NCBI RefSeq assembly: GCF_019565455.1 | Contig: NZ_CP067377.1 | Coordinates: 2,920,001 to 2,984,000, forward strand | DNA: 64,000 nucleotides | Direction of reading: 5' to 3' | DNA from: Flavobacterium oreochromis | GTDB lineage: Bacteria; Bacteroidota; Bacteroidia; Flavobacteriales; Flavobacteriaceae | Part shown: piece by piece, positions 27,833 to 47,050 of the stretch | How positions within the stretch are numbered: position 1 is the first letter of the stretch | Layout of the letters: the number at the start of each line of letters is the position of its first letter | Made by a program: the position numbers and the translations under genes | The notes under the pieces: model-generated | Database searches by the model: none | The model's input: the letters and a program-made list of their open reading frames with translations, nothing else | What the model was told of the DNA's origin: nothing

Positions 27833-28558
27833 TTAAAAATTAGGAGATAAATTATATTTCTTATAGAAATTGTCTAAAGCTTCTACCACCTCATCTTCAG
27901 TATCTACAATTTTGATTAAATTCATGTCTTCAGGATTCGCATTTTTTTGTTTGTCAATCATTACATTTTTAATCCAATCAAGTAATCCGCTCCAGAATTC
28001 TGTACCAACAAGGATGATAGGGAAACGACCTATTTTTTTAGTCTGAATTAATGTGATTGCCTCAAAAAGCTCATCTAATGTTCCAAAACCACCAGGCATT
28101 ACAACAAAACCTTGAGAATATTTTACAAACATTACTTTACGAACAAAGAAATAATCAAAATTTAAATTTTTGTCTTTGTCTATATATGGATTATAGTGTT
28201 GCTCAAAAGGAAGTTCGATGTTTAATCCTACTGATATTCCTTCTCCACGATGAGCACCTTTGTTACCAGCTTCCATAATACCAGGACCTCCACCTGTAAT
28301 AACTCCATATCCAGCTTTAGTAATTTTATAAGCAATTCTTTCTGCTAATTCATAATATTTGTCATCTGGTTTTGTTCTTGCTGACCCAAAAATAGATACG
28401 CAAGGACCTATACGAGCCATTGCTTCGTAACCATTTACGAATTCGGACATAATTTTAAAAATAGCCCAAGAGTCATTTGAGCGTATCTCATTCCAAGTTT
28501 TTTGTTTTAGTTTGTCTTGGATTCTTTCGTCTTCATTTGAAAATACTTCTTTCATCAT
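27833..28558 (-). CDS. LOG-family Rossmann-fold protein (TIGR00730 type)
   Basis: A 241-residue protein with the cytokinin riboside 5'-monophosphate phosphoribohydrolase (LOG) signature: VSIFGSARTKPDD, YGVITGGGPGIMEAGNKGAH and the PGGxGTxxE motif in VVMPGGFGTLDELFEAIT. LOG enzymes cleave the N-glycosidic bond of nucleoside monophosphates; bacterial members may act in nucleotide salvage. The frame is intact. It lies downstream of uvrA on the same strand with a hairpin between. Confidence 0.88.
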   Translation of the reverse strand: MMKEVFSNEDERIQDKLKQKTWNEIRSNDSWAIFKIMSEFVNGYEAMARIGPCVSIFGSARTKPDDKYYELAERIAYKITKAGYGVITGGGPGIMEAGNKGAHRGEGISVGLNIELPFEQHYNPYIDKDKNLNFDYFFVRKVMFVKYSQGFVVMPGGFGTLDELFEAITLIQTKKIGRFPIILVGTEFWSGLLDWIKNVMIDKQKNANPEDMNLIKIVDTEDEVVEALDNFYKKYNLSPNF

Positions 28559-28569
28559 CTTATTATTGC

Positions 28570-28589
28570 GAGTCTTAAGTAAAAGACTC
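28570..28589 (-). terminator. Hairpin between uvrA and the LOG-family gene
   Basis: GAGTCTT (28570-28576) and AAGACTC (28583-28589) form a 7-bp stem downstream of uvrA. The weak T tail means it may be a partial terminator or a processing site. Confidence 0.4.
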
Positions 28590-28624
28590 AGTTATTATTA
28601 TAATTTTTTAGAAAAATCGGCGGA

Positions 28625-31454
28625 CTAAGATAATTCTTTTTTCAAAAATTGGGCAGTATAACTTTTTTTATTTTTAATTATTTCTTCAGGGGTTCCTTTT
28701 GCTATGATCTCACCGCCTCCTTTTCCTCCTTCATATCCTACATCTATAATATAATCTGCTAGTTTTATTACATCTAGATTGTGTTCTATTATTAAAACAG
28801 TATTCCCTTTCTCTACTAATTTATGAATTACATCCATTAATACACGGATATCTTCAAAATGTAACCCTGTTGTAGGTTCATCCATTATATAAAAAGTATT
28901 ACCTGTATCTTTTTAGAAAGCTCTGTAGCTAATTTAATTCGTTGTGCTTCGCCTCCAGAAAGGGTAGTACTTTGTTGGCCTAAAGTGATATATCCTAACC
29001 CAACATCTTGAATGGTTTTTATTTTTCTATAGATTTTAGGGATATTTTCAAAAAAATCTACACCTTCATCTACAGTCATATCTAGTACATCTGAAATAGA
29101 TTTTCCTTTATAACGAATTTCTAAAGTTTCTCTATTAAAACGTTTTCCTTGGCAGGTTTCGCACTCTACATATACATCAGGTAAAAAACTCATTTCAATA
29201 GTACGAACTCCACTTCCCTCACAAGTTTCGCAACGTCCACCTGTTACATTAAAACTAAAACGTCCAGGTTTATATCCTCTGATTTGTGCTTCTGGTGTTT
29301 GTGTAAATAAGGATCGAATTTCTGAAAATACATCAGTGTAAGTAGCAGGATTTGATCTAGGAGTACGACCTATAGGGCTTTGATCTATGTCAATAACTTT
29401 ATCTATATGTTCTAAGCCTTCAATTTTTTTATATGGTTGAGGTTTTTTTACTGCATTAAAAAAATGTTGATTCAGAATAGGGTAAAGGGTTTCGTTGATT
29501 AAAGTTGATTTTCCAGATCCTGAAACTCCTGTTACACAAATTAATTTACCTAAAGGGAATTCCACAGAAACATTTTTTAAATTATTTCCAGTTGCCCCTG
29601 TAAGTTTTATTTTTTTCCATTTCCTTCTCGTCGTCTTGAGGGAATTTCTATTTTCATTTTACCGCTCATGAATTGTGCGGTAATAGTGTTTTCTTTTAGT
29701 AAATTTTGTGGTGTTCCTTGGCTTATGATTTGTCCTCCGTATCGTCCTGCTTTAGGACCTATGTCAATCACGTGATCCGCTCTTTCAATCATGTCTTTGT
29801 CGTGTTCTACAACTAAAACAGAGTTGCCTATATCTCGTAATTGTTCTAATGAACGGATTAGTTTTTCATTGTCTCTTTGATGTAGGCCAATGCTTGGCTC
29901 GTCTAGAATATATAATACGCCAACTAACTGAGATCCTATTTGTGTGGCTAAACGTATGCGTTGTGCCTCACCTCCTGAAAGTGATTTTGAGCTTCTGTCA
30001 AGGGAAAGATAATTTAAGCCAACGTCTACTAAAAATTGTAAGCGAGTCTTTATTTCTTTAATAATTTCAGAAGCAATTACTTTTTGTTTGTCTGTTAAAT
30101 CTTTTTCTAAGTTGTTAAACCATTCGCTTAAATCAGATATGTCAGTACTAGATAGGTCTTGAATATTCCTATTATTTATTTTAAAATAGAGAGCTTCTTT
30201 TTTTAAGCGAGAACCATGACATTCTGGGCAGTTTACTTCGTCCATAAAATCTTTAGCCCAGCGTTTTATAGAAGTAGATTCTGTTTCGTCATGTTGATTT
30301 TTAATAAAATTAGCAATTCCTTCAAATTCAATTTTATATTCTTTAGTTACTCCTGCTGTTTTTGATGTAATAGCAAATTTCTCATTTCCGCCATTTAAAA
30401 TCATATCCATTGCTTCAGAAGGAATTTTTTCAATAGGATCAGTTAATTTAAAACCAAATTTTTCACCAATGGTCTCTAATTGTTTAAAAATCCAAGATGA
30501 TTTATATTCGCCTATTGCTATAATTCCTCCACTTTTAATTGAAAGTTTTGGGTCTGGAATGATTTTTTTTAGATTAATTTCATTTACAGTTCCTAATCCG
30601 TTGCATTTTTCGCAAGCACCTTTTGGGGAATTGAAAGAAAATAAATTAGGTTCTGGATTTTGATAGGATATTCCAGTTGAAGGACACATTAAGTTTCGAC
30701 TAAAATATCTAATTTCTCCTGAATCTTGGTCTAAAATAATCAAGACATTTTCTCCATGATGCATAGCGGTTTTTATACTTTCCATTAATCGTTTTTCGCT
30801 ATCAGAAGAAGTGTTAATGGCTAATCTATCAATAACAATTTCAATATCATGGGTTTTGTAACGATCTAGTTTCATTCCTGCCACAATATCTTGAACCTTT
30901 CCGTTAACACGTACTTTTAAGAAGCCTTGTTTTGCTATTTGTTGGAATAATTCTGCATAATGACCTTTACGAGCGCGAATAATGGGAGCTAGAATATTAA
31001 TTCTTTTTTCATTAAAATTTTCGAAAATCAAATCTTTAATTTGCTCATCAGAGTAAGAAACCATTTTTTCTCCAGTATTATAACTGTAAGCGTCGCCAGC
31101 ACGAGCAAATAGCAAACGTAAGAAATCGTATATTTCAGTAATGGTTCCTACTGTAGAACGTGGGCTTTTGCTTGTTGTTTTTTGTTCGATTGCAATTACA
31201 GGAGAAAGACCATCTATTTTGTCTACATCAGGTCGTTCTAATCCTCCTAAAAATTGACGAGCATAAGCAGAAAAGGTTTCAACATAACGACGTTGTCCTT
31301 CAGCGTAAATTGTGTCAAATGCTAGTGATGATTTTCCTGAACCTGATAAACCAGTGATAACAACTAATTTTTCGCGTGGTATGGTAACATCTATATTTTT
31401 TAGATTATGCGCTCGAGCGCCTATGATTTCAATTGTTTCCTCTGTATGTTGCAT
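28625..31454 (-). CDS. uvrA: Excinuclease ABC subunit A (two frame breaks)
   Basis: The damage-recognition ATPase of nucleotide excision repair, about 943 residues after correction. It has two ABC modules with Walker [17 protein letters not shown] and [16 protein letters not shown], signatures [13 protein letters not shown] and [13 protein letters not shown], zinc fingers ([39 protein letters not shown]) and Walker [13 protein letters not shown] and [11 protein letters not shown]. The breaks are in A runs near 29610-29617 (REGNGKK, continuing [14 protein letters not shown]) and near 28909-28914 (TELSKK, continuing [12 protein letters not shown]). The ATG at 31454 is chosen because the -7 box at 31472-31479 overlaps the alternative start. 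Confidence 0.95.
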
Positions 31455-31471
31455 AAATTTTAAGCAAAACA

Positions 31472-31479
31472 CAAAGGTA
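31472..31479 (-). promoter_or_regulatory. -7 promoter box of uvrA
   Basis: On the minus strand the sequence is TACCTTTG, an exact TAnnTTTG match, 18 bp before the uvrA ATG. Confidence 0.55.
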
Positions 31480-31571
31480 ATTCTTTTGGGTTAAATACAT
31501 GTTGTAATGTATTTTTAAAATTTGTTAAAGATTCGTTATCTATTAAGTTGCTAGATAATAGGTTTGAAATA

Positions 31572-31598
31572 AAAAAGCCCAAACTTAGTTTGAGCTTT
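31572..31598 (-). terminator. Probable original terminator of the tRNA-Arg gene, now at the left end of the element
   Basis: AAAGCCCAAAC and GTTTGAGCTTT form a stem with one mismatch. Read on the minus strand it directly follows the 14-bp tRNA 3'-end remnant and ends in a T run. It fits the pre-integration terminator of tRNA-Arg displaced by the element. Confidence 0.55.
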
Positions 31599-31612
31599 GT
31601 GACCTCGACAGG
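31599..31612. repeat. Left attachment repeat (tRNA-Arg 3'-end remnant)
   Basis: GTGACCTCGACAGG is identical to 46878-46891, which is the 3' end (acceptor and T-arm) of the intact minus-strand tRNA-Arg gene. The match to the tRNA ends right after it. This is the signature left by site-specific integration into a tRNA gene. Confidence 0.75.
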
Positions 31613-31675
31613 GTCGTAACTTTAAGCCTTCACTCCACAAATTTACTACATTTTTACAAATTGTAAATTATTCAA

Positions 31676-31693
31676 GGGGAATAATTAGGGGAA
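31676..31693. repeat. Left copy of 18-bp end repeat
   Basis: GGGGAATAATTAGGGGAA, identical and in the same orientation as 46757-46774. Its place about 64 bp inside the attachment repeat suggests an integrase arm site. Alternatively it is a second recombination core. Confidence 0.6.
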
Positions 31694-31731
31694 AACTCAT
31701 TAAAACTAATTTTTTGCTTTACTTTATTTAA

Positions 31732-32094
31732 TTAAAAAATATTGGCACGGATTCTTTTTACTTTTTCATATCTCTCTTGATGGACATTTTCTATAAAATC
31801 AAAAATTTTCATTTGCCAATTTCTATCGTGAAAAGGAGCTATAAAAATAATAGGGATATTATTTTTTTGATAAATTAAACTTCTTCTTTCGTAATCTGGT
31901 AAATGAGGATTTCCCATAACTTCGATATAAATACCTAATTCAGGTAAATAAAAATCAGGTGCAAAAATTCTAGGTCTATTTGCATTATCAGATAAGAATA
32001 CTGGTTGCTCATAAATCCAAAATACACGCATTTGTTTTAAATAATCACAAACCAATAATTCGGCTTCTGACATATCATCATAAACTTGATACAT
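31732..32094 (-). CDS. Small PD-(D/E)XK-like nuclease
   Basis: A 120-residue protein. RIFAPDFYLPELGIYIEVMG (about residues 42-61) gives the D...E-x-V core seen in small endonucleases related to Vsr and DUF559-type proteins. RRSLIYQKNNIPIIFIAPF then matches the following strand and helix. The Lys of the canonical motif is replaced (EVM), so activity is uncertain. It is the last gene of the restriction-like operon, 14 bp after the FokI-like gene. This assignment comes from motif pattern only. Confidence 0.55.
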   Translation of the reverse strand: MYQVYDDMSEAELLVCDYLKQMRVFWIYEQPVFLSDNANRPRIFAPDFYLPELGIYIEVMGNPHLPDYERRSLIYQKNNIPIIFIAPFHDRNWQMKIFDFIENVHQERYEKVKRIRANIF

Positions 32095-32108
32095 AAATTT
32101 TATTTTAA

Positions 32109-33455
32109 TTATACATCATCAAATTCTTCAATTATATTTTTAGCTTCTATTGGATTTCCAAGACTTACTAAAGTTTCAATTATTGTAGCTGGTGGAATTC
32201 TATCTTTTGTTTTGAAAGCTAATAAATATAATAAGGCTTCTGATGATAATAGAATAAATCTTTTAATATCTGTGTTCCAAGTAATTTCATTAATAAAACT
32301 ATCAAAGTTAGATTTGAACGAATTACTAACTATTATAAATCCAATTTTTTTATAACCCTCTTTTTGTAGTTTTGGACAATAATGGTTTATGTATTCTTTT
32401 ATAGCTCTATCATCAATTCCTAAACTGTAGCCATTAGAATAGGCTTTAGCATCTACAAGAAAAGCCGTATTTTCTTCTCTATGTCTTAATATTGCATCAG
32501 GATTTCTACCGCTTCCTTGTCCTAAAGTTTCTACTTCAAAATCTAATTGTTTAAATATTTCAGCAACCAACTTTTCGTAGGCACTTCCTTTTGAAGATGC
32601 TGATTTATCAGTTTCACTTCCTAATTCAACTAGTTTTGCCACTTTAGGTATTAAATAATCTGACAACTCAAAAGAAGCATTTATAGCGATTATTTTTTCT
32701 TTTTCTATCTCTACCTCCATAATAGGTTTGTTTTCCTTTTTAGTTGATGTAGAAATAGGTTTATTTGGGTTTCCTTTAAAATTCCAAAAAGCGTGTTCGG
32801 CATCCCAATTCGATTTTTCTTTACCTGTATAAGTCTTTAGAACATCTTTTATTTCCTCATTTAAAGCATAAAAATATCTGTATGCTTCAACTTGATTTTC
32901 GTTTTCTTTCCAAAGCCCCAATTCTGTATAAGCATTAATCAAAGAAGTATAAAGAATTGGATATTTACTTTCATCTTGTATTTGCCAAAAATAGGATAGA
33001 AAATAAGATACAGAGCCTGGATTTGGGACTTTTCTTTTATCTTTCGCTTTATTGTAAATTAAAGAACAATGTTTTTCTAATACTTCTATTTTAGACAATG
33101 CATTTTCTAAAGTTTTTGGAATAGATATACATTCTTTCAAAAGAGTTGTCAAACTTTCAATATTCGATTCGTTATTTTTTACTAACTGATTAAAAAACAT
33201 TTGCCCTTTTGTAGCTGTAAACCCCCAAAGATTATTTCTTTTATTATAGCTATCTACATTAGTTTTAAACTCATAAATATTAGAATTTCCATTTTGAAAA
33301 TCTTCAATAAATTTTTTAAGTTCTATAATAGCTAAACGTCTTGCATCATCAATATTAACTAACTCATTACCCTTTGTATCAATAACAGTACGATTAGTTT
33401 TTATATAATCATCCCAAATAGTTTGTATTTGTTGTATTTTATCTTTAATTATCAT
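32109..33455 (-). CDS. Restriction endonuclease-like protein with a FokI-cleavage-type C-terminal domain
   Basis: A 448-residue protein. Residues from about 280 resemble the FokI cleavage domain: GSGRNPDAILRHREENTAFL, then VDAKAYSNGYSLGIDDRAIK, where FokI has PDGAI followed by VDTKAYSGGYNLPI. The D...DxK catalytic set (Asp in NPDAI, Asp and Lys in VDAK) is intact, and IGFIIVSNSFKSNFDSFIN and LLSSEALLYLL follow FokI order. The N-terminal 270 residues (NLWGFTATKGQMFFNQLV; GSVSYFLSYFWQIQ) do not look like the FokI recognition domain and are of unknown role. The frame is intact. It lies 25 bp after the OLD-type ATPase gene and probably works with it. Confidence 0.7.
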   Translation of the reverse strand: MIIKDKIQQIQTIWDDYIKTNRTVIDTKGNELVNIDDARRLAIIELKKFIEDFQNGNSNIYEFKTNVDSYNKRNNLWGFTATKGQMFFNQLVKNNESNIESLTTLLKECISIPKTLENALSKIEVLEKHCSLIYNKAKDKRKVPNPGSVSYFLSYFWQIQDESKYPILYTSLINAYTELGLWKENENQVEAYRYFYALNEEIKDVLKTYTGKEKSNWDAEHAFWNFKGNPNKPISTSTKKENKPIMEVEIEKEKIIAINASFELSDYLIPKVAKLVELGSETDKSASSKGSAYEKLVAEIFKQLDFEVETLGQGSGRNPDAILRHREENTAFLVDAKAYSNGYSLGIDDRAIKEYINHYCPKLQKEGYKKIGFIIVSNSFKSNFDSFINEITWNTDIKRFILLSSEALLYLLAFKTKDRIPPATIIETLVSLGNPIEAKNIIEEFDDV

Positions 33456-33480
33456 TCTTTTATTATTTTAAAGCCAAATT

Positions 33481-35231
33481 TTAATTTTCTTCATTATGAA
33501 AAATTTCTTGTTTACTAATTATACTTTTAAGTTTATCTAATAATGTTTGAAATCCTTCAAGGTCTTGAACGATGTATGAATTAATCGACCTGCTCAACTC
33601 ATCTTTAATTTTTTGTTTTAAATCTTTAGGGAAATTATTAAATGCTCCATTTGCTGATGTAATTAAATTACTAGCAATATCAGTTTTTTTATTATTAGGA
33701 AAATAATCTTCAATTAAAAAATCATCTCCATTATGTGTTACTGTTTTAGGCAACATTAAATAAAAACAATTATTCTTTCTATAAGTATTTTCATTGGCTT
33801 TTCCACGTGAGAATCTTATACAAGATTTCATTCCATCTTTCCCCGCATCATCTCTATCAAATAGAATTATAATTTCTTTATTTTGCGGAATACTTTTTAA
33901 TAATTCATCAAGAAAACTTTTTGCATTAGCTGCACCTCCAAAATGTAATATATCAATATCTAAATTGTTTCTTTCGCCTAAAATATCAATTGCCTTATTA
34001 ATATAATCTACATCTCCTTTGCCTTCTACAAGTAGTAAAGGCTTTTTTGAGCCAATCGCTAATGTTGCATCAATAAAAGAAAATTCATTATCGGTAATAT
34101 GTTCAATATTTCTTATTGTATCAGTATCGATAACTTCTACACTGGCATTATTGTTATTTACAATGAAAACATTTTCTTCTTCTAATTCTTTTATTAGTTT
34201 AGGTGAATGAGTAGTTAAAACTGTAAAATGATTTTTATTTTCAATAAGATTTTTTATTTCTATTTTTCTACTGATATGAAGTGAAACATCAGGTTCGTCA
34301 TATAATACGATAGAATTATTATCAGCTAAAACAGAAGAAATACATTTTATCAATAATAATTTTTTTCTCCCTCACTTAATTTGCGAACATCTTTGTTATT
34401 GAACTCAATATTTATTCTTTTTATAATTTTCTTATTTTTTGGCATTGTTGCTAAAAACAAGAAATCAAATAATTTTCTACACCATTCATTATTATGATTT
34501 TCGTTTTGTAGATTTCCAAGGTCGATACTTGAAATTTGTGATACTTTTAATTTTAAATTAGCATCTAATTCTTGTTCATTTTTGATCCTATCAGTAAACT
34601 GTGGAATAGTTAATTCACTAGTATTACTAATTGAGTATTTTTCTTTGCGAGTATCATAATCATCAAAAAAATCAAACGATATATCAATATCTTGTAAATC
34701 GTTTATTCCCAATAAATTTTTTATGTAATCAATACTTTGTTCATGACATAATAAAGTCAAAAGCGCACTTTCCCAAGAATATTTGTTGATATAAATAAAT
34801 CGTAATCTCTGATCTAAATAGTTCAGTTTTATTTTATTGAAATATTGTAAATATGGTTTAGAAAAAATATCTTCCCAAAGTCGTAATTCTTCACCACTAT
34901 AACACGCAATAACTTGACTTGGTAAATATTGTTTTGTGCTTTTTTGTCTTAGTCTATTATTTACAAAAATTTGGTTGTTTTGTAATCGAATTATATTACC
35001 ATCTTTTTCATATTCTAATAAAAATTCAAAACCTCCAACAGTAGCAATATTAGGAATTGGTTGCTTGTAATAATAACTATGGATAATCTTACTAATAGCT
35101 TCTAGTATATTACTTTTACCAGAACCATTTAAACCTATTAAAGCAACGTAATTACTACAATTTTCAAAATTAAAAACTGTGTTTGCCCCTAAATTTTTAT
35201 ATCCATTTACTGATAGCCTTAATAATTTCAT
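33481..35231 (-). CDS. OLD-family ATPase with C-terminal TOPRIM nuclease domain (one frame break)
   Basis: About 583 residues. The ABC-type ATPase has Walker A LIGLNGSGKSNILEAISK near residue 33, signature RKLSEGEK near 285, Walker B SIVLYDEPDVSLH and the switch His in TTHSPKLI. A TOPRIM domain follows, with LLLVEGKGDVDYI and IILFDRDDAGKDGM supplying its Glu and DxD. The frame breaks at GEKNYY; one more A in the run at 34361-34367 gives GEKKLLLIKCISSVL. OLD proteins are ATP-regulated nucleases, as in phage P2 Old and the Gabija subunit GajA. Gene order places it after the specificity subunit (9 bp) and before the FokI-like gene. Confidence 0.8.
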
Positions 35232-35240
35232 ATAACCTTT

Positions 35241-36572
35241 TTAATTGAAAATAGCGTTTTCAAAATTAATAATAGCTTCTTTTCTCAAAGCTTCCGCATT
35301 TTGTAAATTTTGGTTTTGCTTATTTTTAATGATGTTGTATTCTTCAATAATTTTTAATTGAATGTCCATCGGAGGAATTACAACAGGATAATTTTTAATC
35401 ATATCCGCATTCAAGTTTGGTTGATTATTACCAGTTGCAAGTTCTCTCATTCTTTCATACTCATTCATAAGGTAAATCCAAAGGTAGTCTGTAATTACAA
35501 TTTCATTGTTTATATTAAATAATACCGCACAAGCTTGATTTGTTGTCGCATCTATGCCTAGTTTTGCTGTTCGTCCTCTTGTTTTTCCCTGACCATACAT
35601 TGCGATTATTAGACTTCCTTTAGGGTATAATTTTGCACTACTATTTTTAATTGCTTCCGATGTAATTTTCTCTTCTGTATCAAAAATAACGTCATCCAAT
35701 ACCTCTCCTGTTTTTATCCAAGGAATATTACCATTATAATAACTTTTGTTATTTCGAGATGGAGTTCCGCCACTACTAACGCTACAAATTTCAATAACTT
35801 TTACGGTTTTGAATTTACCGTTATATTTTGTGTGAGATTTAAAAATTTGGTCTAATCCCCATTTCTCAATTAACTTAAAATCAACAAAATTTAATTTACC
35901 AACATTAGATTCAATTTTAATATTAGAAATACCTAACTGGTAATCTAATTCATTTTTTAAATTTTTAGCTTCATTTTCTAAATGCTCGGCAATTTGTTTC
36001 TTGTTTTGGTAGTCCTCAACTAATTTTTTTTGTTCTTCTATACTAGGAAGAGGAATTGTTACACTTAAAAATTCTTCAATCTTTACTCTAGCTTTACCTA
36101 CCCCAACTTTTAAAGAATCAAGTTGTTTTTTGAAATAACTACTTCTTAGTAATAGTATTAAAAAATCAGCATTAATTATATTGTCATTAAATATAAAGCA
36201 AGGATATTCATTACTTACAACAAAAGGTTTTAAATCATTGTAATATATGCAACCGTGTCTAACATTTATTTTTGAATAAATAATTGAATTTTTCGGGACT
36301 TCAAATAAATTTCCTTTGTAGTTCTTTATTTCATCAAACTCTCTCAAAAATAAATTACCTCCAAAATCAATTTTTGAAATAATTTGATACTGATTTTTTT
36401 CTACCTCTTTACGGCTTACTGGTTTTCTATGGATTTTTAATATTTCCGATAATTTTACAGAATTTTCAAATTCAAGTTTACTTTCAAATATATTTTTTTT
36501 TACATCCCAAGTTATTAAAGAATGAAAATCGAAAAAATTCAAATATTTATATTTATTGATATTATTCATCAT
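35241..36572 (-). CDS. Restriction-modification specificity subunit (HsdS-like)
   Basis: A 443-residue protein with two target-recognition domains, each followed by a helical spacer. The first ends VTIPLPSIEEQKKLVEDY. The second has VKVIEICSVSSGGTPSRNNK, SLIIAMYGQGKTRGRTAKLG and TTNQACAVLF, ending PVVIPPMDIQLKIIEEY. The duplicated layout predicts a bipartite target sequence. It overlaps the methyltransferase stop by 11 bp. The frame is intact. With the upstream methyltransferase it should form the DNA-recognition and modification complex. Confidence 0.88.
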   Translation of the reverse strand: MMNNINKYKYLNFFDFHSLITWDVKKNIFESKLEFENSVKLSEILKIHRKPVSRKEVEKNQYQIISKIDFGGNLFLREFDEIKNYKGNLFEVPKNSIIYSKINVRHGCIYYNDLKPFVVSNEYPCFIFNDNIINADFLILLLRSSYFKKQLDSLKVGVGKARVKIEEFLSVTIPLPSIEEQKKLVEDYQNKKQIAEHLENEAKNLKNELDYQLGISNIKIESNVGKLNFVDFKLIEKWGLDQIFKSHTKYNGKFKTVKVIEICSVSSGGTPSRNNKSYYNGNIPWIKTGEVLDDVIFDTEEKITSEAIKNSSAKLYPKGSLIIAMYGQGKTRGRTAKLGIDATTNQACAVLFNINNEIVITDYLWIYLMNEYERMRELATGNNQPNLNADMIKNYPVVIPPMDIQLKIIEEYNIIKNKQNQNLQNAEALRKEAIINFENAIFN

Positions 36573-38863
36573 AAAAAACTTCTTCTATACTGTTACCATT
36601 CTCGTCTTTTCGGATTCTTATGATTCTATCATTGATAATTTTATATTCAAAATTGAATGCTTTTCTAGTTTCCCACAACTGAACTTGTCTTCTATATTGG
36701 GTAAACTCATCTCTAAGATTTGGTAATTCATTATCAATTTTAGCACCTTTACTATCAATACCAGCTTTTGTAATTTCCGCTAATGGTACGGAATAATTAA
36801 ACCGTTCTTTAACTAATGCTTTAATCTCATTTTCTATTAGGTATTCAATTTCTTTTAATTGATTTTTAAGTGCCTTTTTCACTTCTGAATTAAGAGATTC
36901 TTTTCCACGAAAACCTAATTTCTCCTTTATGGAAGCAACTTCATTTTTATATTTATCATTTACTTCTGCATTTGCATTAAGATTTATTTTCTTCCATAAT
37001 TTTTCTTCTTCATCTGTAAATCTTTTTAAGAAAACTAAACTAGTTGTTACTGTTGCACCACTAGCAATAAATACATCTTGCGGTATAGAAGTAATCAAAA
37101 CCAATTTAGCTCTGCCTTCAAAATAATCTCTCGCTTTTTGTAGGTTAGAAGTATTTAAAACCCCCTCAGGTAGAACAACTGCTAATCGTCCACCTTTGCG
37201 AAGTAATCTAATACAACGCTCCATAAACATAATTTCTGTTAGTGTACTTATTTTACCAACATCATATTTATCTACAATTTTTTTCTTATCTTTAATATCC
37301 TTTTCTCTTGCATTGATAATTTTTTCATAGTTAGGATACATAGCTAACCAATCTTGATAATGAGGTTTACTTTTTAAGCTGTCTTCTTCGGTAATTTTCA
37401 ACTCTTTATCAACTCTAGCTCCAAAAGGTGGATTAGTTAAAATAACATCAAATCGTTCTTCAAATATTCCATTTACATCAAGTAAACCATCATTGTGATG
37501 AACTCCTCCATGACCATCACCGTGCATAATCATATTCATTTTAGAAACTCTCGCCATTCTAGGATTAGCATCAGTACCAAAAATACATTTATGAGATAAA
37601 TGATATAATCTACTTTTATCGTTGTCAAGATTTAATTCTTCGTTGAGTTGCTTGAAAATTTTATCAACTTTAGCTTCAACCTTTTCTTTTTCTTTATCAC
37701 TTGCTTTAAGATATTTTTCATCAAAGAATTGTTCTTTAATCTTTTCTTTTTGTAACTCAATATCTTTTTTTATGTTTTCACGGACATATTCAAAAGCATT
37801 TATTAAAAAACCACCTGAACCACTACATGGGTCACAAATTCGCTCTCCCTCTTGTGGGTCTATAACTTCGGTCATAAACTCTACAATGGTACGAGGTGTA
37901 AAAAACTGACCTAATTCTCCTCTAAAGGTTGTTCCTAAAAATTTCTCAAAAGCAATACCTTTTACATCATCAGAAGTTTTGGAAAGATTATAAACTTGTA
38001 ATTTTTCTACAATAGACAAAAAGCTTTCTTTTCTAATTCTGATGTTATCATTATCACTAAAAAGAGCATCTTTTTCATAATTTTTTTAGTTCTACGGAAA
38101 ATAATCTGCATGAAATCCGTATTCTTATCTACACCATCTAAATAAGGTCTTGTATGGAGATTATATTCGTTCTCTAAACGTTCAAATTCTTTTTTAGAAA
38201 AAATACTATCCTGATTATTTATATTTCTATTCTCACGTTCAAAAACAATTTTGGTAAATAGAATTTTACTAATTTCATCAAATGCAGCTTCGGGTGAAAG
38301 CTTATCATTATTACGGATTACATTATGACATTGATGTAATAGTTTAGCAAATTCATCTTTTTCAAATACCTTTTCATCTTGAAATAGTTTCTCTCTTTTT
38401 TATCATCTAACAATTCTTCGGCAGATGGTATTCTTGAAAGTTCCGTACCTAAATTTTTCGGTATTTTTTCTTTATGAACTTGAAAGCATCTCGTTTCTTT
38501 ACTATTATGAGTAATAAAAAAATCAGCACTTACCCAAGTTGCATAATTTAAACCTTGATAGTAATCGGCTGGTTGAATAGTTACATTATCAGATTTACAC
38601 TCAACAACAATTGAAGCTAATTCGTTATTATCTTTAGCTTCGGCAGTTTTCCAAATTACAATATCAGCACTAGCTCTTCCAGTACCTCGTTGGGAATTTG
38701 TTACTTTTAATTCTTGAGCCATTTGGTTATAATTATAACCCAATTCATCAATTAGATATTGAATAAATTTTTGGCGAATAATTTCTTCTGGTGTTGCTTC
38801 TAACCAAACATTATCTCCTTTTAATGGAGCTTTTATTTTATTATCTTTAATTTCAATTTCCAT
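36562..38863 (-). CDS. N6-adenine methyltransferase with N-terminal HsdR-type nuclease domain (two frame breaks)
   Basis: About 767 residues. The N-terminal 150 are an HSDR_N-like PD-(D/E)XK domain (EEIIRQKFIQYLIDELGYN, RASADIVIWK, ASIVVECKSDN) with D...ExK intact. From about residue 330 comes an N6 adenine methylase: RGELGQFFTPRTIVEF, motif I ICDPCSGSGGFLINAF and motif IV DVILTNPPFGARVD. Breaks in A runs near 38396-38401 (DDKKRE, continuing KLFQDEKVFEK) and 38083-38090 (RRTKK, continuing NYEKDALFSDN) are bridged. The nuclease-methylase fusion with a separate S subunit is the BcgI-like type IIB/IIG plan rather than type I. It is 9 bp after the XRE gene. Confidence 0.85.
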
Positions 38864-38872
38864 GAAAAGAAT

Positions 38873-39169
38873 TTATTTTTTTAATTGTTTTATATTGTTA
38901 GACACTTCTTTAAGTGCTTTATTAGCTAATTTTTCATCTTTTAAAACATCAAGTACCTGATCGGCTAACCAAACAGTCGTTAAATCATCAATACTAGTTT
39001 TTAAGATTTTAGCAAGAATGGGAATATATTCTTTTTTAGCCTTTCGTTCTCCTCTTTCAATTTTACTATACAAGGGAGTATCAATATTTAGAGCATTAGC
39101 TAAATGCTTCTGAAATAAATTATTTTTTACACGAAGTTCTTTTACTTTATTTCCAAACTGATTTGACAT
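38873..39169 (-). CDS. XRE-family controller-type regulator
   Basis: A 98-residue protein with an N-terminal helix-turn-helix (KVKELRVKNNLFQKHLANALNIDTPLYSKIERGER). It is first in the restriction-like operon, in the place held by C (controller) proteins that time expression of the restriction activity after the methylase. An inverted repeat TTGAC-TT-GTCAA lies 11 bp before its start and is a likely own operator. Similar half-sites occur in the CBASS promoter region. The frame is intact. Confidence 0.8.
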   Translation of the reverse strand: MSNQFGNKVKELRVKNNLFQKHLANALNIDTPLYSKIERGERKAKKEYIPILAKILKTSIDDLTTVWLADQVLDVLKDEKLANKALKEVSNNIKQLKK

Positions 39170-39179
39170 AGTACAAAAA

Positions 39180-39191
39180 TTGACTTGTCAA
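39180..39191. promoter_or_regulatory. Inverted repeat upstream of the XRE gene
   Basis: TTGACTTGTCAA has perfect 5-bp arms around TT, immediately upstream of the xre start. It shares the TTGTCA half-site with the cluster at 42004-42089. Confidence 0.5.
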
Positions 39192-39268
39192 ATATCGTTA
39201 AACAATTCCATTAAAACAAGACATGAAGTAGGACGTTTAGTATAATTCAATAAAAGCTTAAAATGAAA

Positions 39269-39299
39269 AGCCCCAAAAGGTGTTTAACCAAATGGGGCT
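39269..39299 (-). terminator. Terminator of the CBASS operon
   Basis: AGCCCCA (39269-39275) and TGGGGCT (39293-39299) form a 7-bp GC-rich stem followed on the minus strand by TTTTC. It lies in the roughly 320-bp gap between the CBASS operon end and the XRE gene; nothing else is seen in that gap. Confidence 0.65.
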
Positions 39300-39512
39300 G
39301 AACTAAAAGTAATTTTATATTTATGAATTTAAAAAAAACGATTTGTTTTGTCATATAACAAATAACTCTTTTAATCATTTAAACCAATTTTTATTTCTTC
39401 AAAGTATAGAATTGGTTTTTTTACTTTAATAAACCATAAAATCAAATAAAAAGACCAAAATCAGCACAAATTAATCTATCCTTTGATTTAAAATAATTAC
39501 GAAATGATAAAA

Positions 39513-40432
39513 TTAAACTCTAACAATCTCTATAAAATCTTGGAATGAATTTTTCTTTATTAAACCATTTAATGTAAATACAAATTTTTCCAATTCTCTA
39601 TTTAGGATATTCTCATACTCTTCCCCAAAAATTCTATATTCGTCAGGTAATAATTCTTTTATAGCATAATTTATCCCTGTTAGTGTTGAAGGAAAATCAA
39701 CAATTAATAATTCACCTGATTCTAACAATTTACTATTAACTTGGAATGGTCTAGGTCTTCCCATACACTCAATTTGTACCTGTTCAACTCCGACCTCTCT
39801 TTTAATTCTTTCAAATTGAAGATTAATATTTTCATCAATTTTTTTTGGTACTAATATTTCAAATTTACAACGCTCATATTCAACGTCTTTCACTTTTAAT
39901 TTTCCATCCTCAATAATTTTAGCACAAATTGCTTTGATAAAATTTTCAAAATAACCATAAGCCAAAGTATTAGATGGGAAAAAATTAAAAGTATCTAATT
40001 CAACGGATAAGAAAGCTCGTTTTATTTCATCTACTTTATGAACTAAATTTTTATCATTAAATTTAGAAATAAAAATTCCACTTAAATCACTCAACTCTTT
40101 TACATTTTCGTGTACTAAAAAGAACATCGTTTTAATCCTAATCTACCAATGAATAAACCAAGCTCAAATAAAATATTATCTCTGGCTTGTAAATATTCTT
40201 TTCCTCGTACTTCCACTTTATCATCAGGAGAACCAATTAAAATTCCAAAGTCAAATTTTAAAGGAGCTTTTAATAAATCATGTAAAAAATTATTATTTAG
40301 TTTAAATACAGATTTATCCCATAAATTTTCATTCCAAATAACCACATCAAAATCATTTTCTAAAAGTTTTTGTACAGTTTTAGCAGTTTCAATTTCTTCT
40401 GATGAACTGCCTATGAATAGCTTTTTTTTCAT
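39513..40432 (-). CDS. TIR-STING CBASS effector (one frame break)
   Basis: About 306 residues. The first 105 are a bacterial TIR-like NADase domain ([49 protein letters not shown]; the Glu of FELG is the likely catalytic residue). The rest matches bacterial [22 protein letters not shown] for the dimer helix and ligand pocket, then [10 protein letters not shown] and [14 protein letters not shown]. The frame breaks at KRCSF; one more T at about 40126-40130 gives [15 protein letters not shown]. Known bacterial STINGs bind c-di-GMP, assemble into filaments and let the TIR domain destroy NAD+, causing abortive infection. It starts 1 bp after the CD-NTase stop. Confidence 0.85.
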
Positions 40433-40433
40433 T

Positions 40434-41519
40434 TTACAAAAATTTAGTGAATGAAGTTTGAGGTGATAAATCTTGATAAATTGGGAGTAATTCGTTAAAA
40501 ATTAATCTCAACAAACGTAACTTTTCATTTTTATCTTTAAAAATATACTCTGTATTATCAATAGACCTTATTGAATTTCTATAATTCTCATCTTCAATAA
40601 TTTTCTTTAATTCAGAGTAAAGGACAATTACTAATTCATAATAAGGCTTGTCAGAATATTTCCAAGTAGGTATATTATAACAAATTGAACTAATATCGAA
40701 GCTTGATATTTCTTTCAAATTATATTCAGAATCAGCTTTGATAGTTTTCAAAAAACGAATCATTTTTTTTAAGCGACCATTTACAGATTTATCTTTTCCA
40801 TTCAATAATTGAATTTTAAGGAAAGGAAAATCAACTGGAAGTCTTAAATTTTTTTCTTTATCATATATCTGAATACCGTTTTTATCAACATCATTGTCTA
40901 ATACAGAATCTACATTTTTATACCAAGATGCAGTTACAACATCTACAAGTCTATCAGGATTTGTCGGATTTACTTCAATAGATTTAGATTTTGTAATATC
41001 AACATATTTATAAGTTGAAGTTAAAACAGTTTCAGCTTCAAGTCTTATTTTTCTCAAGTTATCCCTTACATCGTCTTTATATGGAGTACCATTAATAACA
41101 CTTAATAAGTTTTGTTTTTGACTAAGGGTTAAATAAGATGAACTCGTAAATTTTTCGTTAAATTTTACAATCGGTTCATGAGAGTAGAAAGAATTTGTTA
41201 TTTGTACTAAATCAATATCACTATGACCTTTTATATGTGTATTACACATAACAGAACCTTGGAATTTATAGTCCAAACTTGAATTATTCCTTTTAAGATG
41301 TTCTTTTATTTTATTTCCAGCCTCAATCGTCCTTTCAGTATATTCTGATTCAACTCCTTGCATGGCTCTTTTTACATATTCAAAAACTTCTGAATAGGGT
41401 ATTCCTAACCCTCTAAAATCTTCATTAAATGATTTACTAAATAATTCAGTTTCTCTAATTGAATCGGGATTACTTCTACTTTTTACTCTTTGTACTAAAT
41501 CAGCGTAATTTTTTTGCAT
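40434..41519 (-). CDS. CBASS CD-NTase (cyclic dinucleotide synthase, STING-associated)
   Basis: A 361-residue nucleotidyltransferase. The catalytic motif is [20 protein letters not shown] (GS plus DID), with the third acidic residue in [14 protein letters not shown]. The helical C-terminal half ([32 protein letters not shown]) fits the OAS-like fold. Placed directly before a TIR-STING effector, it is probably of the CdnE type; characterised STING-linked enzymes make c-di-GMP. It would be activated by phage infection. No Cap2/Cap3 genes accompany it, so this is a minimal type I CBASS. The frame is intact. Confidence 0.88.
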
Positions 41520-41542
41520 AAATACTACTTTAATTGGTTTTA

Positions 41543-41773
41543 CTATCCTTTACTTTTTCTTGGGTCATTAGATTTAGGATAAGTCCTTTCTTCTTGAAAT
41601 CCACCATCATTTTTATGGATTTTCAAAGAACCCCCACCTTGTTTAACAATAAAATCTTTTGATTGGCTAATAGCATCTTGCTTATTAGAATCAATTACTT
41701 TAGAAGCTCTTTCAGCATTCTCTCTTTTTAGTTTGTACACGCCATCTTCATGGACTAAATGAAAATTTTCCAT
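41543..41773 (-). CDS. DUF2188-like small protein at the head of the CBASS operon
   Basis: A 76-residue basic protein. The pattern HLVHEDGVYKLKRENAERAS, KQDAISQSKDFIVKQGG and LKIHKNDGGFQEERTYP matches the DUF2188 family, which has no known function. It lies 23 bp before the CD-NTase on the same strand and shares its transcript. A link with CBASS is inferred from position only. Confidence 0.7.
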   Translation of the reverse strand: MENFHLVHEDGVYKLKRENAERASKVIDSNKQDAISQSKDFIVKQGGGSLKIHKNDGGFQEERTYPKSNDPRKSKG

Positions 41774-41795
41774 CGGTTAATAGAATTAAAATTAA

Positions 41796-41812
41796 GTAGC
41801 AATCGGTGCTAC
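41796..41812 (-). promoter_or_regulatory. Leader hairpin before the CBASS operon
   Basis: GTAGCA (41796-41801) and TGCTAC (41807-41812) form a perfect 6-bp stem with a 5-base loop about 23 bp before the first ATG. It may affect translation. Confidence 0.35.
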
Positions 41813-41871
41813 ATTTCCGAGAAAGGACGATAAAGTTTGTAGAAGTAAAAAAAAGTAGTATTTTCGCACCC

Positions 41872-41965
41872 ACAAATAAAAGGACGGCTTCACCTTTTCT
41901 TTTAAAACCGTCCATTGAATATATTTTCAAAAGTCCTATCGGTCAGAGGTTAGGACTTTTTTATT
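41872..41965 (+). ncRNA. Candidate small RNA, antisense to the CBASS leader region
   Basis: On the plus strand, where all nearby genes are on the minus strand, TTTG (41836-41839) and TATTTTCG (41859-41866) are 19 bp apart, the flavobacterial promoter spacing. About 95 bp later there is a classical terminator, AAAAGTCCTA (41929-41938) with TAGGACTTTT (41951-41960) and a T run. Between them GGACGG (41882-41887) and CCGTCC (41908-41913) form a second stem. The loop text GTCCTATCGGTCAGAGGTTAGGAC recalls a tRNA D-arm. No convincing ORF is present on the plus strand. Confidence 0.4.
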
Positions 41966-42003
41966 AGTAAAATTTTAACAAGTATAGTGCCAACAAGATA
42001 AAA

Positions 42004-42089
42004 ATGACAACTTGTCATATCTTTTATCAATATTTTAATAGTTTTAATTTATGACAAGTTTTTTTTAAACAATATGTACTTTTTGTCAT
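42004..42089. promoter_or_regulatory. Cluster of TGACAA half-sites upstream of the CBASS operon
   Basis: ATGACAA-C-TTGTCAT (42004-42018) is a palindrome with 7-bp arms. Further half-sites are ATGACAA at 42051-42057 and TTGTCAT at 42083-42089, again in inverted order. They resemble the repeat before the XRE gene at 39180-39191, so one regulator may bind both places. Confidence 0.45.
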
Positions 42090-42202
42090 AAAAAAATCAA
42101 TTACGGCAGTTTAAGTAAAGATTTTTAATAACTAAGAGTATTTATATTTTAAACTATAAGAAGTGCCTAAAAAATCATTCATTTATTAAATTAAATACAA
42201 AT

Positions 42203-42245
42203 AAAGCGGAGAAAGTAAATGACCTTGTTAACTTATCTCCGCTTT
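42203..42245 (-). terminator. Terminator downstream of the 42315 gene
   Basis: AAAGCGGAGA (42203-42212) and TCTCCGCTTT (42236-42245) are perfect 10-bp arms with a 23-base loop. It ends the transcript that reads leftward through the two unknown element genes. Confidence 0.65.
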
Positions 42246-42314
42246 GGCTTATTTATCAATTTAATTTGGCTCTAAAAGGGTATTTTATTTATTATATACC
42301 TTGTTATATTTATA

Positions 42315-43337
42315 TTAGGTATTTATATATCGAATATTACCCTTATTATACAACCTATCTGTTTTCTTCTTTAATTCATATAAAATAATAGCCTTATAAT
42401 CCTTTTCGCTGATAATATACGATTTGTATATATTCATTAAATCATTAAAATGTTTAGATTTATTATTTGGCAAAACCTTTTCATTAAAGTCCATTATTGT
42501 CTTATGTATTCCAGTAATTTTCATGTAGGAGTAAAGACTCCAATTTATAAAATCAATTTTAGACATTTTCGGTTTATTATTTTCATTGATAAATTCTTTC
42601 TTTGAAATAGTATCGATAAATTTAATCGCATTTAGATATTTATTAAGTTCGTTAGGTAATTCATTCCAATTGGATTTCAATGAACTTAATTCGTGATATT
42701 TCATTTTAAAAGTTGGAATACTTACTTTATTAATATCTATTTCAAATCTTAACAATAGATATTTACTGATAATATTTTTATCCAAATCAGTCAATTCTTT
42801 TTTACCTAAAATTTCAAGATATTTATCATAAATTACCGAATCGTAATTAGTAAATCTAAAGTAGATACTGGTTACATTATTATCATCTCTTTTTGCATTT
42901 CGATATTTTACAAAACAATCTAGTATGTCATTGGTAAACGATTTTAATAATAATGTAATTCCAATTTCCAATTGGGTAACTTTAAACATTCTCCAGATTT
43001 CACCTTTTTTTAAACCAAGTTTACAACCCAATATTTCTATACAATCAATAAATTCGTAATAGTTTAGGTCTTTTCGAGAGTTTTTGTTAAAATACCATTT
43101 TCTAATACTTCCGTTTATTGATAAAGAATAAGTACCAGTTTTTAAATTTTCGGTCAATAGCATTCTTAAACTAAACATCCTTGATTTTTTAGTTATATTA
43201 GTCTGTAAATATCTATTTAATTCAAAGTCGAGTTCTGTAAACTCATCTTCGTCAATTTCAATCTCTTTCCATCTAAAATTTTTCTTAATGAAGTCGGGAT
43301 TAAAATTTTCAGCCATTAATTTAATTTTATCTACCAT
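42315..43337 (-). CDS. Element protein of unknown function, possibly replication-related
   Basis: A 340-residue cytoplasmic protein. QLEIGITLLLKSFTNDILDC, SIYFRFTNYDSVIYDKYLEI and KYLLLRFEIDINKVS follow the order seen in filamentous-phage gene II/X-like replication initiators, but no catalytic Tyr or HUH motif could be confirmed. Residues about 65-125 (TGTYSLSINGSIRKWYFNKN, YYEFIDCIEILGCKLGL) repeat a segment of the preceding gene, which it overlaps by 7 bp. Its place beside the integrase and excisionase suggests an element maintenance role. This is low-certainty inference. Confidence 0.45.
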   Translation of the reverse strand: MVDKIKLMAENFNPDFIKKNFRWKEIEIDEDEFTELDFELNRYLQTNITKKSRMFSLRMLLTENLKTGTYSLSINGSIRKWYFNKNSRKDLNYYEFIDCIEILGCKLGLKKGEIWRMFKVTQLEIGITLLLKSFTNDILDCFVKYRNAKRDDNNVTSIYFRFTNYDSVIYDKYLEILGKKELTDLDKNIISKYLLLRFEIDINKVSIPTFKMKYHELSSLKSNWNELPNELNKYLNAIKFIDTISKKEFINENNKPKMSKIDFINWSLYSYMKITGIHKTIMDFNEKVLPNNKSKHFNDLMNIYKSYIISEKDYKAIILYELKKKTDRLYNKGNIRYINT

Positions 43338-43792
43338 ATTCTATATATCATTTTTTCAAATTCATCTAACTTTTTATCACTTAGATAAAAGTCATTGAAA
43401 TAATATCGATACTCATTATTTTTATGAAATAGAAGTACATTTTTTGCAACGCTGAACCTTTCTTCTCTGTAGTTAAAATTAAAATCAAGTTCAGTATGTA
43501 ATAATTTTGCACACTCTACATACTCATCTATTGTTAATTCATCTTTTACATATTCTTGATGGAACCAAAATTTTAGTTTACCTCCCCCAATTAATAAAAC
43601 ACAAGAATTATCAATTTCATTATATATAGTCCATAGCGTTAATGGATATAATTTTTTCTTCTTAATACTATTGTACAAACAAGCCTTGAAAATTATCAAA
43701 TTTTTAGTATCAGATGAGTTATCTCTTATCCATTTTATTTTTTCACTTGGATAATAATTTTTAGAATAAAAGGATATATTATATTTTATCAT
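43331..43792 (-). CDS. Element protein of unknown function related to the N-terminal part of the next gene
   Basis: A 153-residue protein. LLIGGGKLKFWFHQEYVKDE and TIDEYVECAKLLHTELDF parallel a segment of the 42315-43337 protein, so the two share a domain. Its stop lies inside the start of that gene, giving coupled translation. No catalytic motif is recognised. It lies 53 bp after the excisionase-like gene. Confidence 0.4.
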   Translation of the reverse strand: MIKYNISFYSKNYYPSEKIKWIRDNSSDTKNLIIFKACLYNSIKKKKLYPLTLWTIYNEIDNSCVLLIGGGKLKFWFHQEYVKDELTIDEYVECAKLLHTELDFNFNYREERFSVAKNVLLFHKNNEYRYYFNDFYLSDKKLDEFEKMIYRIW

Positions 43793-43844
43793 GTTTTTAT
43801 TTTTTTTAGTTAATACTATTTCAGTTTATTTTTAATTGACTTTT

Positions 43845-44156: not shown

Positions 44157-44159
44157 AGA

Positions 44160-45328
44160 TTAAAATTTTACGTTTTTCATTAATTTGCTTAAAGTATCTT
44201 TATCAGTATTCATATAAATTTGAGTTGTTTTTATACTTCGATGCCCCATAGCACTAGAGATATAATTAATCGGCATTCCTCTTAAGGCTAGTATTGAACC
44301 ATACGTATGACGTCCGTCATGGAAATTAATTTTATTCTTAATTTTAGCAATTTTTCCAATTATTTTTAAATGTCTATTTAATACTGCATTACTCTTTAAT
44401 TCAAATACTAACTCATTGTCTTTCTTTTTATCAAAATCATACTTTTTTAATATTTCTATCCAATAATCATTGTAGGGAATCGAAACTTCTTTTTAGTTTT
44501 AATTTGCCTTTTTATTATTTCCTTTTTATCAATAATATCTTTTTTCTTTAAAGATTTAATATCGCAATCTCTCAATCCTGTATAGCAACTAAACAAAAAC
44601 AAATCTCTTGTGTATTCTAATCCTTTAGTTAAATTTCCTAATTTTAAATCAGCATTTCTTAATCTTTGCAATTCTTCAGGATTTAAAAAATTTATTCGTG
44701 GTTCTTCATATAATTTTTTAAAGTTTATACTCGGGTTTTCCTTTATTTTTTTATCTAAAACTAATTTCTTCAAAATGGTTTTAAAATACTTTGCATAGTT
44801 ATTAGTTCCAGAATTGCCTGATTCTAAATCCACTTTTAAGAAGTAGATAAAATCATCAAAAAAACTTGTATCAATTTCATCTAAGGTAAGTTTTGGTCTA
44901 AACAATTTTAACCTATCTCTTAATTGTTTATAATGTCTTTGGGTACCAATAGCTATATCTTCAATAGCAAACTTATTTTTAAGAATTTCATCAAAATGAA
45001 AATAAAAGTCGTTATTGATTTTGACTTTATCTTCTCCTTTAATTTTCTTCAAGATAGTTTCCTTTGTAAATACTTCATCATTATTTTCCATTTCTAAAAG
45101 AATCTTGTAAATTCTACTTTCTTCTTTCATAAGAACATTTTTTAATAATAAATCTTTTGGGCATTTTTTCTTTTCGTCCCATAAACTAGGGTGAATTAAT
45201 TTTCCCGATGGTGTTTTAGTTTTTCCACCACGATAAATAATCTGAAAGTTAATAGGACATCTTCCAGTTTCATCTTTTCTTGGTTGCTCTTTTCTTAAAA
45301 TAGCTTTAACCGAAAACGAATTTTTCAT
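44160..45328 (-). CDS. Tyrosine recombinase/integrase of the element (one frame break)
   Basis: A site-specific integrase of about 389 residues. It has an Arm-DNA-binding N-terminal domain (GRCPINFQIIYRGGKTKTPSG), a SAM-like core-binding domain (FDEILKNKFAIEDIAIGTQ) and a catalytic domain with Arg in FSCYTGLRDCDI, HxxR in NFHDGRHTYGSI, His in SSAMGHRSIKTT and the nucleophile Tyr in QIYMNTD. The frame breaks at KTKKKFRFP; one more A near 44490-44495 restores KTKKEVSIPYNDYW. It should integrate the element at the 3' end of tRNA-Arg(ACG). Confidence 0.9.
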
Positions 45329-45454
45329 TGGTATTTAAAATTTAATAATTAATAATTCAAACTGTTTTCTTTACTTAATACTCGGAAATCAATTTTTTTT
45401 TGGCGATTTCACATATTTAACATATCGTTAACACTTTGATTTTGGGTAATAAAA

Positions 45455-45477
45455 AAGCGACCTAGTCAAAGTCGCTT
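45455..45477 (-). terminator. Terminator of the TonB-like gene
   Basis: AAGCGAC (45455-45461) and GTCGCTT (45471-45477) form a 7-bp stem followed on the minus strand by a T run. Confidence 0.75.
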
Positions 45478-45500
45478 ATTTTAAAGAAGTTAAGGAGGTT

Positions 45501-46952: not shown

Positions 46953-46976
46953 ATTATGAGTTTTTATTTTATTTTG

Positions 46977-47050
46977 TGACCTCGACAGGATTCAAACCTG
47001 TAACCTTCTGAGCCGTAATCAGATGCGCTATTCAGTTGCGCCACGAGGCC
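46977..47050 (-). tRNA. tRNA-Arg(ACG), copy 2
   Basis: Identical over all 74 nt to copy 1, 24 bp upstream on the minus strand. A TATATTTG promoter box at 47094-47101 precedes it, so both copies are probably made from one transcript. The tandem pair may be original or produced by the integration event. Confidence 0.95.

Follow-up and report, generated by a model that had tools for sequence, protein, structure and literature searches.

A flavobacterial operon joining methylase and specificity genes to an OLD-type ATPase-nuclease appears to be an anti-phage system of a little-described kind

What kind of system is encoded when DNA methylase and specificity genes stand in one operon with an OLD-type ATPase and a FokI-like nuclease? 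The question is raised by a 64,000-nucleotide stretch of the Flavobacterium oreochromis genome (hereafter the window, in which all coordinates are given unless a locus is named), where six genes on the minus strand, from 39169 to 31732, encode in order an XRE-family protein, a methylase (M), a specificity subunit (S), an OLD-type protein, a FokI-like protein and a small PD-(D/E)XK-like protein. A preliminary description, made from the sequence alone, had read them as a six-gene operon with overlaps or gaps under 30 bp, which is borne out by intergenic distances of 9, -11, 9, 25 and 14 bp, 25 bp being the largest gap. The gene families that it named were confirmed, but M and OLD, which it took for single genes, each correspond to two open reading frames (ORFs) here. 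Of the up to four nuclease domains that it announced, all four are present as nuclease-like domains, but only three (HSDR_N, TOPRIM and FokI) have complete motifs, the small protein being without the canonical lysine. Judging from its genes, the operon seems to be an anti-phage system of a sort that has been little described, with a methylase–specificity–ATPase core.

That M, S and the ATPase belong together is best seen by starting from M. Using M of locus L006 from Flavobacterium urocaniciphilum (one open gene of 779 aa) at E<=1e-60, we found homologues in 6 of 395 genomes sampled across the phylum and 3 of 397 sampled in the family, amounting to seven distinct genomes including the window's own. 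In all six of these Bacteroidota genomes with enough flanking sequence, M and S are followed by a PtuA-type ABC ATPase, the seventh having been left out because its contig stops after M. The ATPase is fused to a TOPRIM domain, and thus of OLD type, in four (the window's genome, G606, G187 and G394) and followed by a PtuB HNH protein in two (G226 and G385). Among the M-clade loci viewed by all routes, including FokI, plasmid and IMG/VR searches, the ATPase is present in 15 of 18, nine being of the OLD type (the window, L006, L011, L019, L072, L077, L084, L086 and L099) and six of the PtuA-PtuB type (L008, L034, L073, L085, L096 and L107); seven of the 18 (the window, L006, L008, L011, L019, L021 and L034) were found through FokI and are a biased sample, only the end of M is visible in L019, and in L034 M occupies two ORFs and PtuB was recognised by eye. 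Mapping OLD and Ptu onto the M tree takes three changes, only one of them forced, a pattern that suggests, at most, repeated swapping of the nuclease on one M lineage. Counts from a regular-expression scan for methylase motifs, which was too strict and missed known cases, were not used.

The same association is recovered from the ATPase side. The L006 OLD protein (one open gene, 594 aa) matches two of the 397 family genomes at E<=1e-30, both with M-S, and one of 72,556 plasmid records at 1e-20, where XRE-M-S lies ahead of OLD; an OLD profile finds two loci in IMG/VR, one with OLD and one with a PtuA-type ATPase, both with M-S. Although these numbers are small, every OLD hit thus stands next to M-S, which argues against the chance neighbourhood that the preliminary description had named as the result that would refute it. 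When the ATPases occupying this slot in L085 and L073 were used as queries, they matched one and four plasmid records of Alpha- and Gammaproteobacteria, at 24-31% identity. The plasmid ATPases of L112-L116 lie directly after an S gene in five of five, with a DNA methylase in the same run, and in four of the five a gene for 269-305 aa with an HNH-like pattern, recognised by eye, comes next. The M proteins of these plasmids align to L006 M from residue 270 on only and seem to lack HSDR_N, and no HsdR is found in four of the five stretches (12-15 kb fetched, not whole plasmids or hosts), L114 alone having one. L113, L115 and L116 therefore consist of M-S-ATPase-HNH-like genes, without HSDR_N on M and without HsdR in the fetched stretch, and because they show no other recognised nuclease on M or as HsdR, though L116 has a TnsA-type gene nearby, the ATPase-nuclease is there the likely effector of M-S, not a mere guard. 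With an M-S-ATPase order found in two phyla or more, and on plasmids as well as viral contigs, [XRE]-M-S-OLD is, on the evidence of gene order, a real unit, and the view that OLD is no chance neighbour of M-S is supported.

Module by module, the parts are as follows. The XRE-family helix-turn-helix protein (98 aa, 38873..39169; Pfam HTH_3 1.3e-8, PADLOC Control_protein 2.6e-8) is the probable operon regulator, and an XRE gene also precedes M in L006, L011, L021, L026 and L077. Its putative promoter/operator region (39170..39255, minus strand) is near identical in the window, L006 and L011, and an inverted repeat that lies shortly before the start of XRE (TTGAC-AA-GTCAA, 39191-39180) is identical in the latter two. 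The first piece of M (38318..38863) holds an HSDR_N_2 nuclease-like domain (Pfam 1.2e-23), whose residues D67 and E88-C-K90 are invariant across 10 aligned relatives, and the second (36562..38019) is an N6-adenine methylase with an NPPF motif (Pfam N6_Mtase 5.6e-36; PADLOC PDLC03018 1.4e-204). The S protein (443 aa, 35241..36572) has two target recognition domains, matched by Methylase_S in two stretches (7.3e-33). The likeness in gene make-up to BcgI-type enzymes claimed at the outset is supported, since a nuclease-methylase fusion (HSDR_N_2 plus N6_Mtase) with a separate S is found in the type IIB restriction–modification (RM) systems BcgI and BsaXI, and M matches RM.BsaXI (8w0p_A, 9.6e-19) over its methylase part; unlike in those enzymes, an OLD/Ptu module is attached here. 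The HsdR translocase-nuclease of type I RM is absent from the 64 kb window, where tblastn with four HsdR proteins (E<=1e-4), not extended to the rest of the genome, found nothing, in agreement with the early remark that there is no HsdR helicase.

As for OLD, its first piece (34350..35231) comprises the N-terminal half of an ABC ATPase up to the signature motif, with PtuA PDLC00293 as PADLOC match (3.8e-21) and 48% identity to residues 1-289 of L006 OLD, while the second (33481..34353) runs from Walker B to TOPRIM, is 52% identical to residues 273-585, and has ATPase-Toprim_I-B as best PADLOC model (5.3e-12) and an OLD-like_TOPRIM match (0.005) below the Pfam cut-off. Walker A and B, the signature and TOPRIM residues E394, D450 and D452 are invariant in seven OLD relatives, and the same motifs were recognised by eye in the window, spread over its two ORFs; an ABC ATPase with a C-terminal TOPRIM and catalytic motifs in both is what defines an OLD nuclease. 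The intact L006 protein is best matched by PDLC00293 (8.3e-42), the best PADLOC model in nine of nine full-length slot ATPases scanned, TOPRIM-fused or not, and the AriAB model of PARIS matches the slot ATPase more weakly. A scan of 128 genomes with PDLC00293 at 1e-40 is uninformative, there being no match even in the window's own genome.

How might such a unit work? Starting from the observed gene content, motifs, conserved co-occurrence and identity contrasts between modules, we infer licensing, targets and a role in defence along the following lines, a scheme that we favour tentatively and credit with slightly less than an even chance of being right: the core would be a translocase-less RM-like system whose M-S pair marks self and licenses the OLD nuclease, with the FokI-like protein as a second layer. 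The XRE protein would control expression of the operon, and the M-S complex would scan DNA and methylate adenine in a bipartite site that both recognition domains of S together define, this methylation marking host DNA as self. At unmethylated or blocked sites, M-S is predicted to license the ABC ATPase of PtuA type; the nuclease of the latter (TOPRIM here, the HNH protein PtuB in sister loci) would then act on DNA or tRNA, and the HSDR_N domain of M is likely to contribute cuts of the BcgI kind. A separate layer would be formed by the FokI-like protein and the small nuclease, in which an N-terminal domain may read DNA, possibly modified bases, and deliver the FokI cleavage domain. We consider possible, with less confidence, a broader class in which M-S alone would discriminate self from non-self and license a PtuA-type ATPase whose TOPRIM or HNH nuclease can be swapped; some genes currently annotated as OLD or Septu would then be effector arms of M-S, and the free-standing FokI-like family would use its N-terminal domain, shared with a McrB-type protein, to read modified phage DNA by flipping bases in the way of a glycosylase. 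If true, OLD and Septu, which annotation tools treat as separate systems, would be tied to a methylation-based sensor, OLD would have a context outside the four classes named in the excerpted review, and there would be a testable claim on a motor-less RM-like complex passing a non-self signal to an ATPase-nuclease.

Several observations weigh against this scheme. The ATPase is absent from three of the 18 M-clade loci (a Bro-N gene takes its place in L021, and nothing does in L097 and L098), and a Walker-motif scan found none after S in any of eight assessable, more distant M-S pairs of IMG/VR (~40-43%); M-S can hence exist by itself. In L112 no partner is annotated behind the ATPase, a TnsA-type endonuclease gene lies nearby in L116 and other genes in L113, and of at least 2349 OLD-like proteins few were seen in their genomic context. 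Contact of M-S with the ATPase is a prediction, and both M and OLD are split in the window itself.

The existence of M-S pairs without an ATPase agrees with a competing explanation, in which M-S with HSDR_N is a self-contained type IIB-like enzyme and OLD or PtuAB comes in as an abortive backup, in the manner of PARIS or PrrC, once a phage has inhibited the RM complex. Excerpts of the literature offer precedents: PARIS and PrrC are RM guardians (PMC12707154), OLD-ABC ATPases with TOPRIM or HNH serve as backup effectors in BREX and BREX-related loci (PMC12839542), and a Septu PtuAB cleaves tRNA-Tyr (PMC13096335). This explanation nevertheless appears rather unlikely, since L113, L115 and L116 show no restriction enzyme to guard in the fetched stretch, even if one could lie elsewhere.

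Under the preferred scheme, self marking by M-S coupled to an ATPase-nuclease effector would follow the same principle as MADS and as BREX equipped with OLD effectors. These two, together with the RM guardians, the tRNA-cleaving Septu and TgvAB, a type IV system embedded in a type I RM cluster according to an excerpt (PMC12409362), are the reason why we regard the operon as a variation on a known logic rather than a new kind. No paper on this composition was found by title or abstract start. Krishnan's 2020 work is said to deal with RM-like ABC systems and may already cover part of the present system. BREX, as far as the excerpt goes, has in common with the operon self marking by an N6-methylase and OLD-ABC ATPases with TOPRIM or HNH, but M is here an HSDR_N-methylase with a separate S, and neither PglZ nor BrxC nor DUF499 appears in the Pfam and PADLOC matches listed for the proteins scanned. 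MADS, the methylation-associated defence system, consists of genes mad1-8. MAD2 and MAD5 are the best NCBIfam matches of M and S, and the ATPase and TOPRIM parts are hit by the models of mad3 and mad4, but ATPase and TOPRIM are fused here and the scores are far below the curated cut-offs (205 and 30 bits for the M pieces vs. 720, and 57 for S vs. 400). We therefore rejected MADS membership. No match to mad6-8 is found among the best 25 matches per protein for the 10 window proteins scanned, and when a genuine MADS locus was sought for comparison, matches came from none of 5 genomes and then from 5 of 274, none of the 274 over the cut-off.

With Septu the operon shares the PtuA-type ATPase (PDLC00293 as best model), but a TOPRIM stands in the window in place of the HNH partner PtuB, which is found in sister loci only, and M-S here belongs to the unit; an excerpt of a PADLOC survey names a reverse transcriptase (RT) and Hma as associates of Septu, and not M-S. 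An ABC ATPase and TOPRIM with complete motifs are common to Gabija and OLD classes 1-4, from which, as those classes are outlined in the excerpted review (PMC10568477), the present protein differs in being neither alone nor split as AriA/AriB, and in coming without GajB or a retron RT. The Pfam tables of the operon proteins contain no helicase family, and thus no UvrD-like GajB.

What, then, of the breaks in M and OLD, which invite the reading that the copy here is dead and its relatives functional? Each of the two genes is open and single in L006, whose intact operon spans 3209-10724, and likewise in L011. However, the frames of FokI-like, S, XRE and the small nuclease are open, and the damage extends beyond the operon: the adjoining uvrA (28885-31472) is fragmented, as is another uvrA copy outside this region, and the TIR-STING gene of a neighbouring CBASS is in two ORFs, whereas rpoB is intact. 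Because both uvrA copies and TIR-STING are broken too, and rpoB is not, scattered indel errors of sequencing or assembly are the likelier cause of the frame breaks, and decay is improbable.

The FokI-like protein (448 aa, intact, 32109..33455) answers to a different logic. It matches FokI_cleav_dom above the curated Pfam cut-off, a sequence-profile comparison with FokI covers residues 272-404 only, and its residues D320, D335 and K337, invariant or nearly so among relatives, align to those of FokI, giving it the cleavage fold and D-D-K active site of this type IIS enzyme, which it has in common with type IV modification-dependent enzymes as well. The recognition domain of FokI, by contrast, is unmatched by sequence to the N-terminal helical domain (residues 1-236; 32748..33455, minus strand). 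A Foldseek search of this domain against the PDB gave nothing significant; its best structural rows are glycosylases, with a weak likeness to the HhH-GPD fold, and it is elsewhere fused to a McrB-type AAA domain (AAA_5). This fusion and the glycosylase likeness suggest that the domain is a DNA reader, in which case the family would add a possible modified-DNA reader, a candidate tool and a candidate type IV enzyme. In L075, from a Natronosalvus halobius plasmid (8001-10996), the N-terminal domain joined to McrB-type AAA_5 is followed by a possibly McrC-like gene, a pair that is possibly a new type IV restriction variant.

The FokI-like gene is also distributed differently. At least 26 of 57 FokI-like loci carry RM genes (type I, IIG/IIB or III), many have none, some of these adjoining gyrB, nuo, Dus or Tex genes, and the gene was seen in one of the six sampled M-S-ATPase stretches and in none of the other five. 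On the FokI tree, linkage to M-S of the HSDR_N type takes eight changes, a count that is approximate because of label errors: L029, L042, L045 and L050 were scored as having no RM, although RM genes are present in L029 (an HsdR cluster) as well as in L045 and L050 (both type III-like), and N6_Mtase is weakly matched in L042; L007 was scored as "other RM" although its M has HSDR_N_2; and the label "coreMS" merges two M clades, L010, L013 and L026 being ~30% identical to L006 M. The co-occurrence with methylase and specificity genes that had been proposed as a check is found for OLD, and the idea of OLD and FokI as a two-gene, Gabija-like pair was rejected, since the FokI-like gene is gained and lost without regard to OLD and lies next to type I, IIG or III genes or away from any RM genes. 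What naturally pairs with M-S is a PtuA-type ATPase together with TOPRIM or HNH, and the FokI-like gene, on its genomic contexts, is a modular add-on. The same contexts bear on the proposal that FokI is the main restriction nuclease of M-S, recruited by S, with OLD as accessory. Its catalytic residues are conserved, and FokI comes immediately after M-S in L010, L037 and L060 (with HsdR further on in L037 and L060), but the gene was not seen in five of the six sampled stretches, is often found where there are no RM genes and carries a domain fused elsewhere to AAA_5, which makes this quite improbable.

Other genes lie beside M-S in FokI loci, namely an 8xMP membrane protein (L013, 8138-8989), HEPN with putAbiC (L018, 7097-8962), a nucleoside-deoxyribosyltransferase-like or TIR-effector-like protein (L026, 6064-7599) and Bro-N (L021, 5805-6647), which marks this position as an exchangeable cassette slot. 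FokI relatives were found neither in IMG/VR, with two peptide patterns, nor in phage records; archaeal plasmids gave two distant partial matches, and a viral structure library one match at E<0.001 and otherwise generic nucleases. The small PD-(D/E)XK-like protein (120 aa, 31732..32094) has 25 homologues and no Pfam match, and PD47 and E58-V-x-G61 are invariant in 19 aligned sequences; in L011 it is present only as a shorter ORF.

How these modules came together is best judged from their setting, an island (31596-46989) at tRNA-Arg that has att-like repeats of 17 bp and carries an integrase-like ORF, two genes of unknown function, a CBASS and the M-S operon. L006 has this island as well. Between the window and L006, identity is 90% for the integrase, 91% for u340, 60% for u153, 84% for XRE, 95% for FokI and 98% for the small nuclease, compared with ~54% for M, 23% for S and 48-52% for OLD; between L006 and L011 it is uniform save for S (XRE 95, M 91, S 44, OLD 86 and FokI 91%). 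From the contrasts between the window and L006, M-S-OLD seems to have been exchanged as a block inside a conserved frame, although different constraint could contribute. The exact six-gene set occurs in the window, L006 and L011 (with its shorter small-nuclease ORF), and L019 shares S-OLD-FokI; the set is best seen as M-S-OLD plus a FokI-small nuclease rider in one flavobacterial island lineage. That unrelated defence genes were merely heaped by chance at a tRNA-Arg hot spot and share only transcription is, despite the CBASS, the integrase-like ORF and the free movement of FokI, highly improbable and already disfavoured for M-S-OLD by its recurrence across phyla, plasmids and viral contigs, chance being possible for FokI and the small nuclease.

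At the right border of the island lies a copy of the tRNA-Arg 3' end (31596..31612), an exact 17-bp match to the repeat at 46973..46989 beside tRNA-Arg (46976-47050), which it overlaps; a second tRNA-Arg copy (46875-46891) has one mismatch, and with up to two mismatches the pattern has three matches in the window vs. a mean of 0.00 in 100 shuffles. Homology between the window and L006 ends at 31596, and a 13-mer found there also follows the small nuclease gene in L006. A terminator-like hairpin after the operon (31574..31598, minus strand) is not above expectation, one being found vs. a shuffle mean of 2.0, and Rfam has no match at gathering score in window 28000-42000. The CBASS (39513-41519), with its CD-NTase (40434-41519) and TIR-STING effector (40115-40432 and 39513-40127), sits between the two unknown genes and the M-S operon, and neither protein has a match in the L006 stretch. 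The tyrosine-recombinase-like integrase (44456..45328, minus strand), recognised by eye and without a PDB match, is apparently cut short; its counterpart, the first ORF stretch of L006, matches it at 90% identity over 208 residues, and in that locus the two unknown genes (43331-43792 and 42315-43337) also have counterparts.

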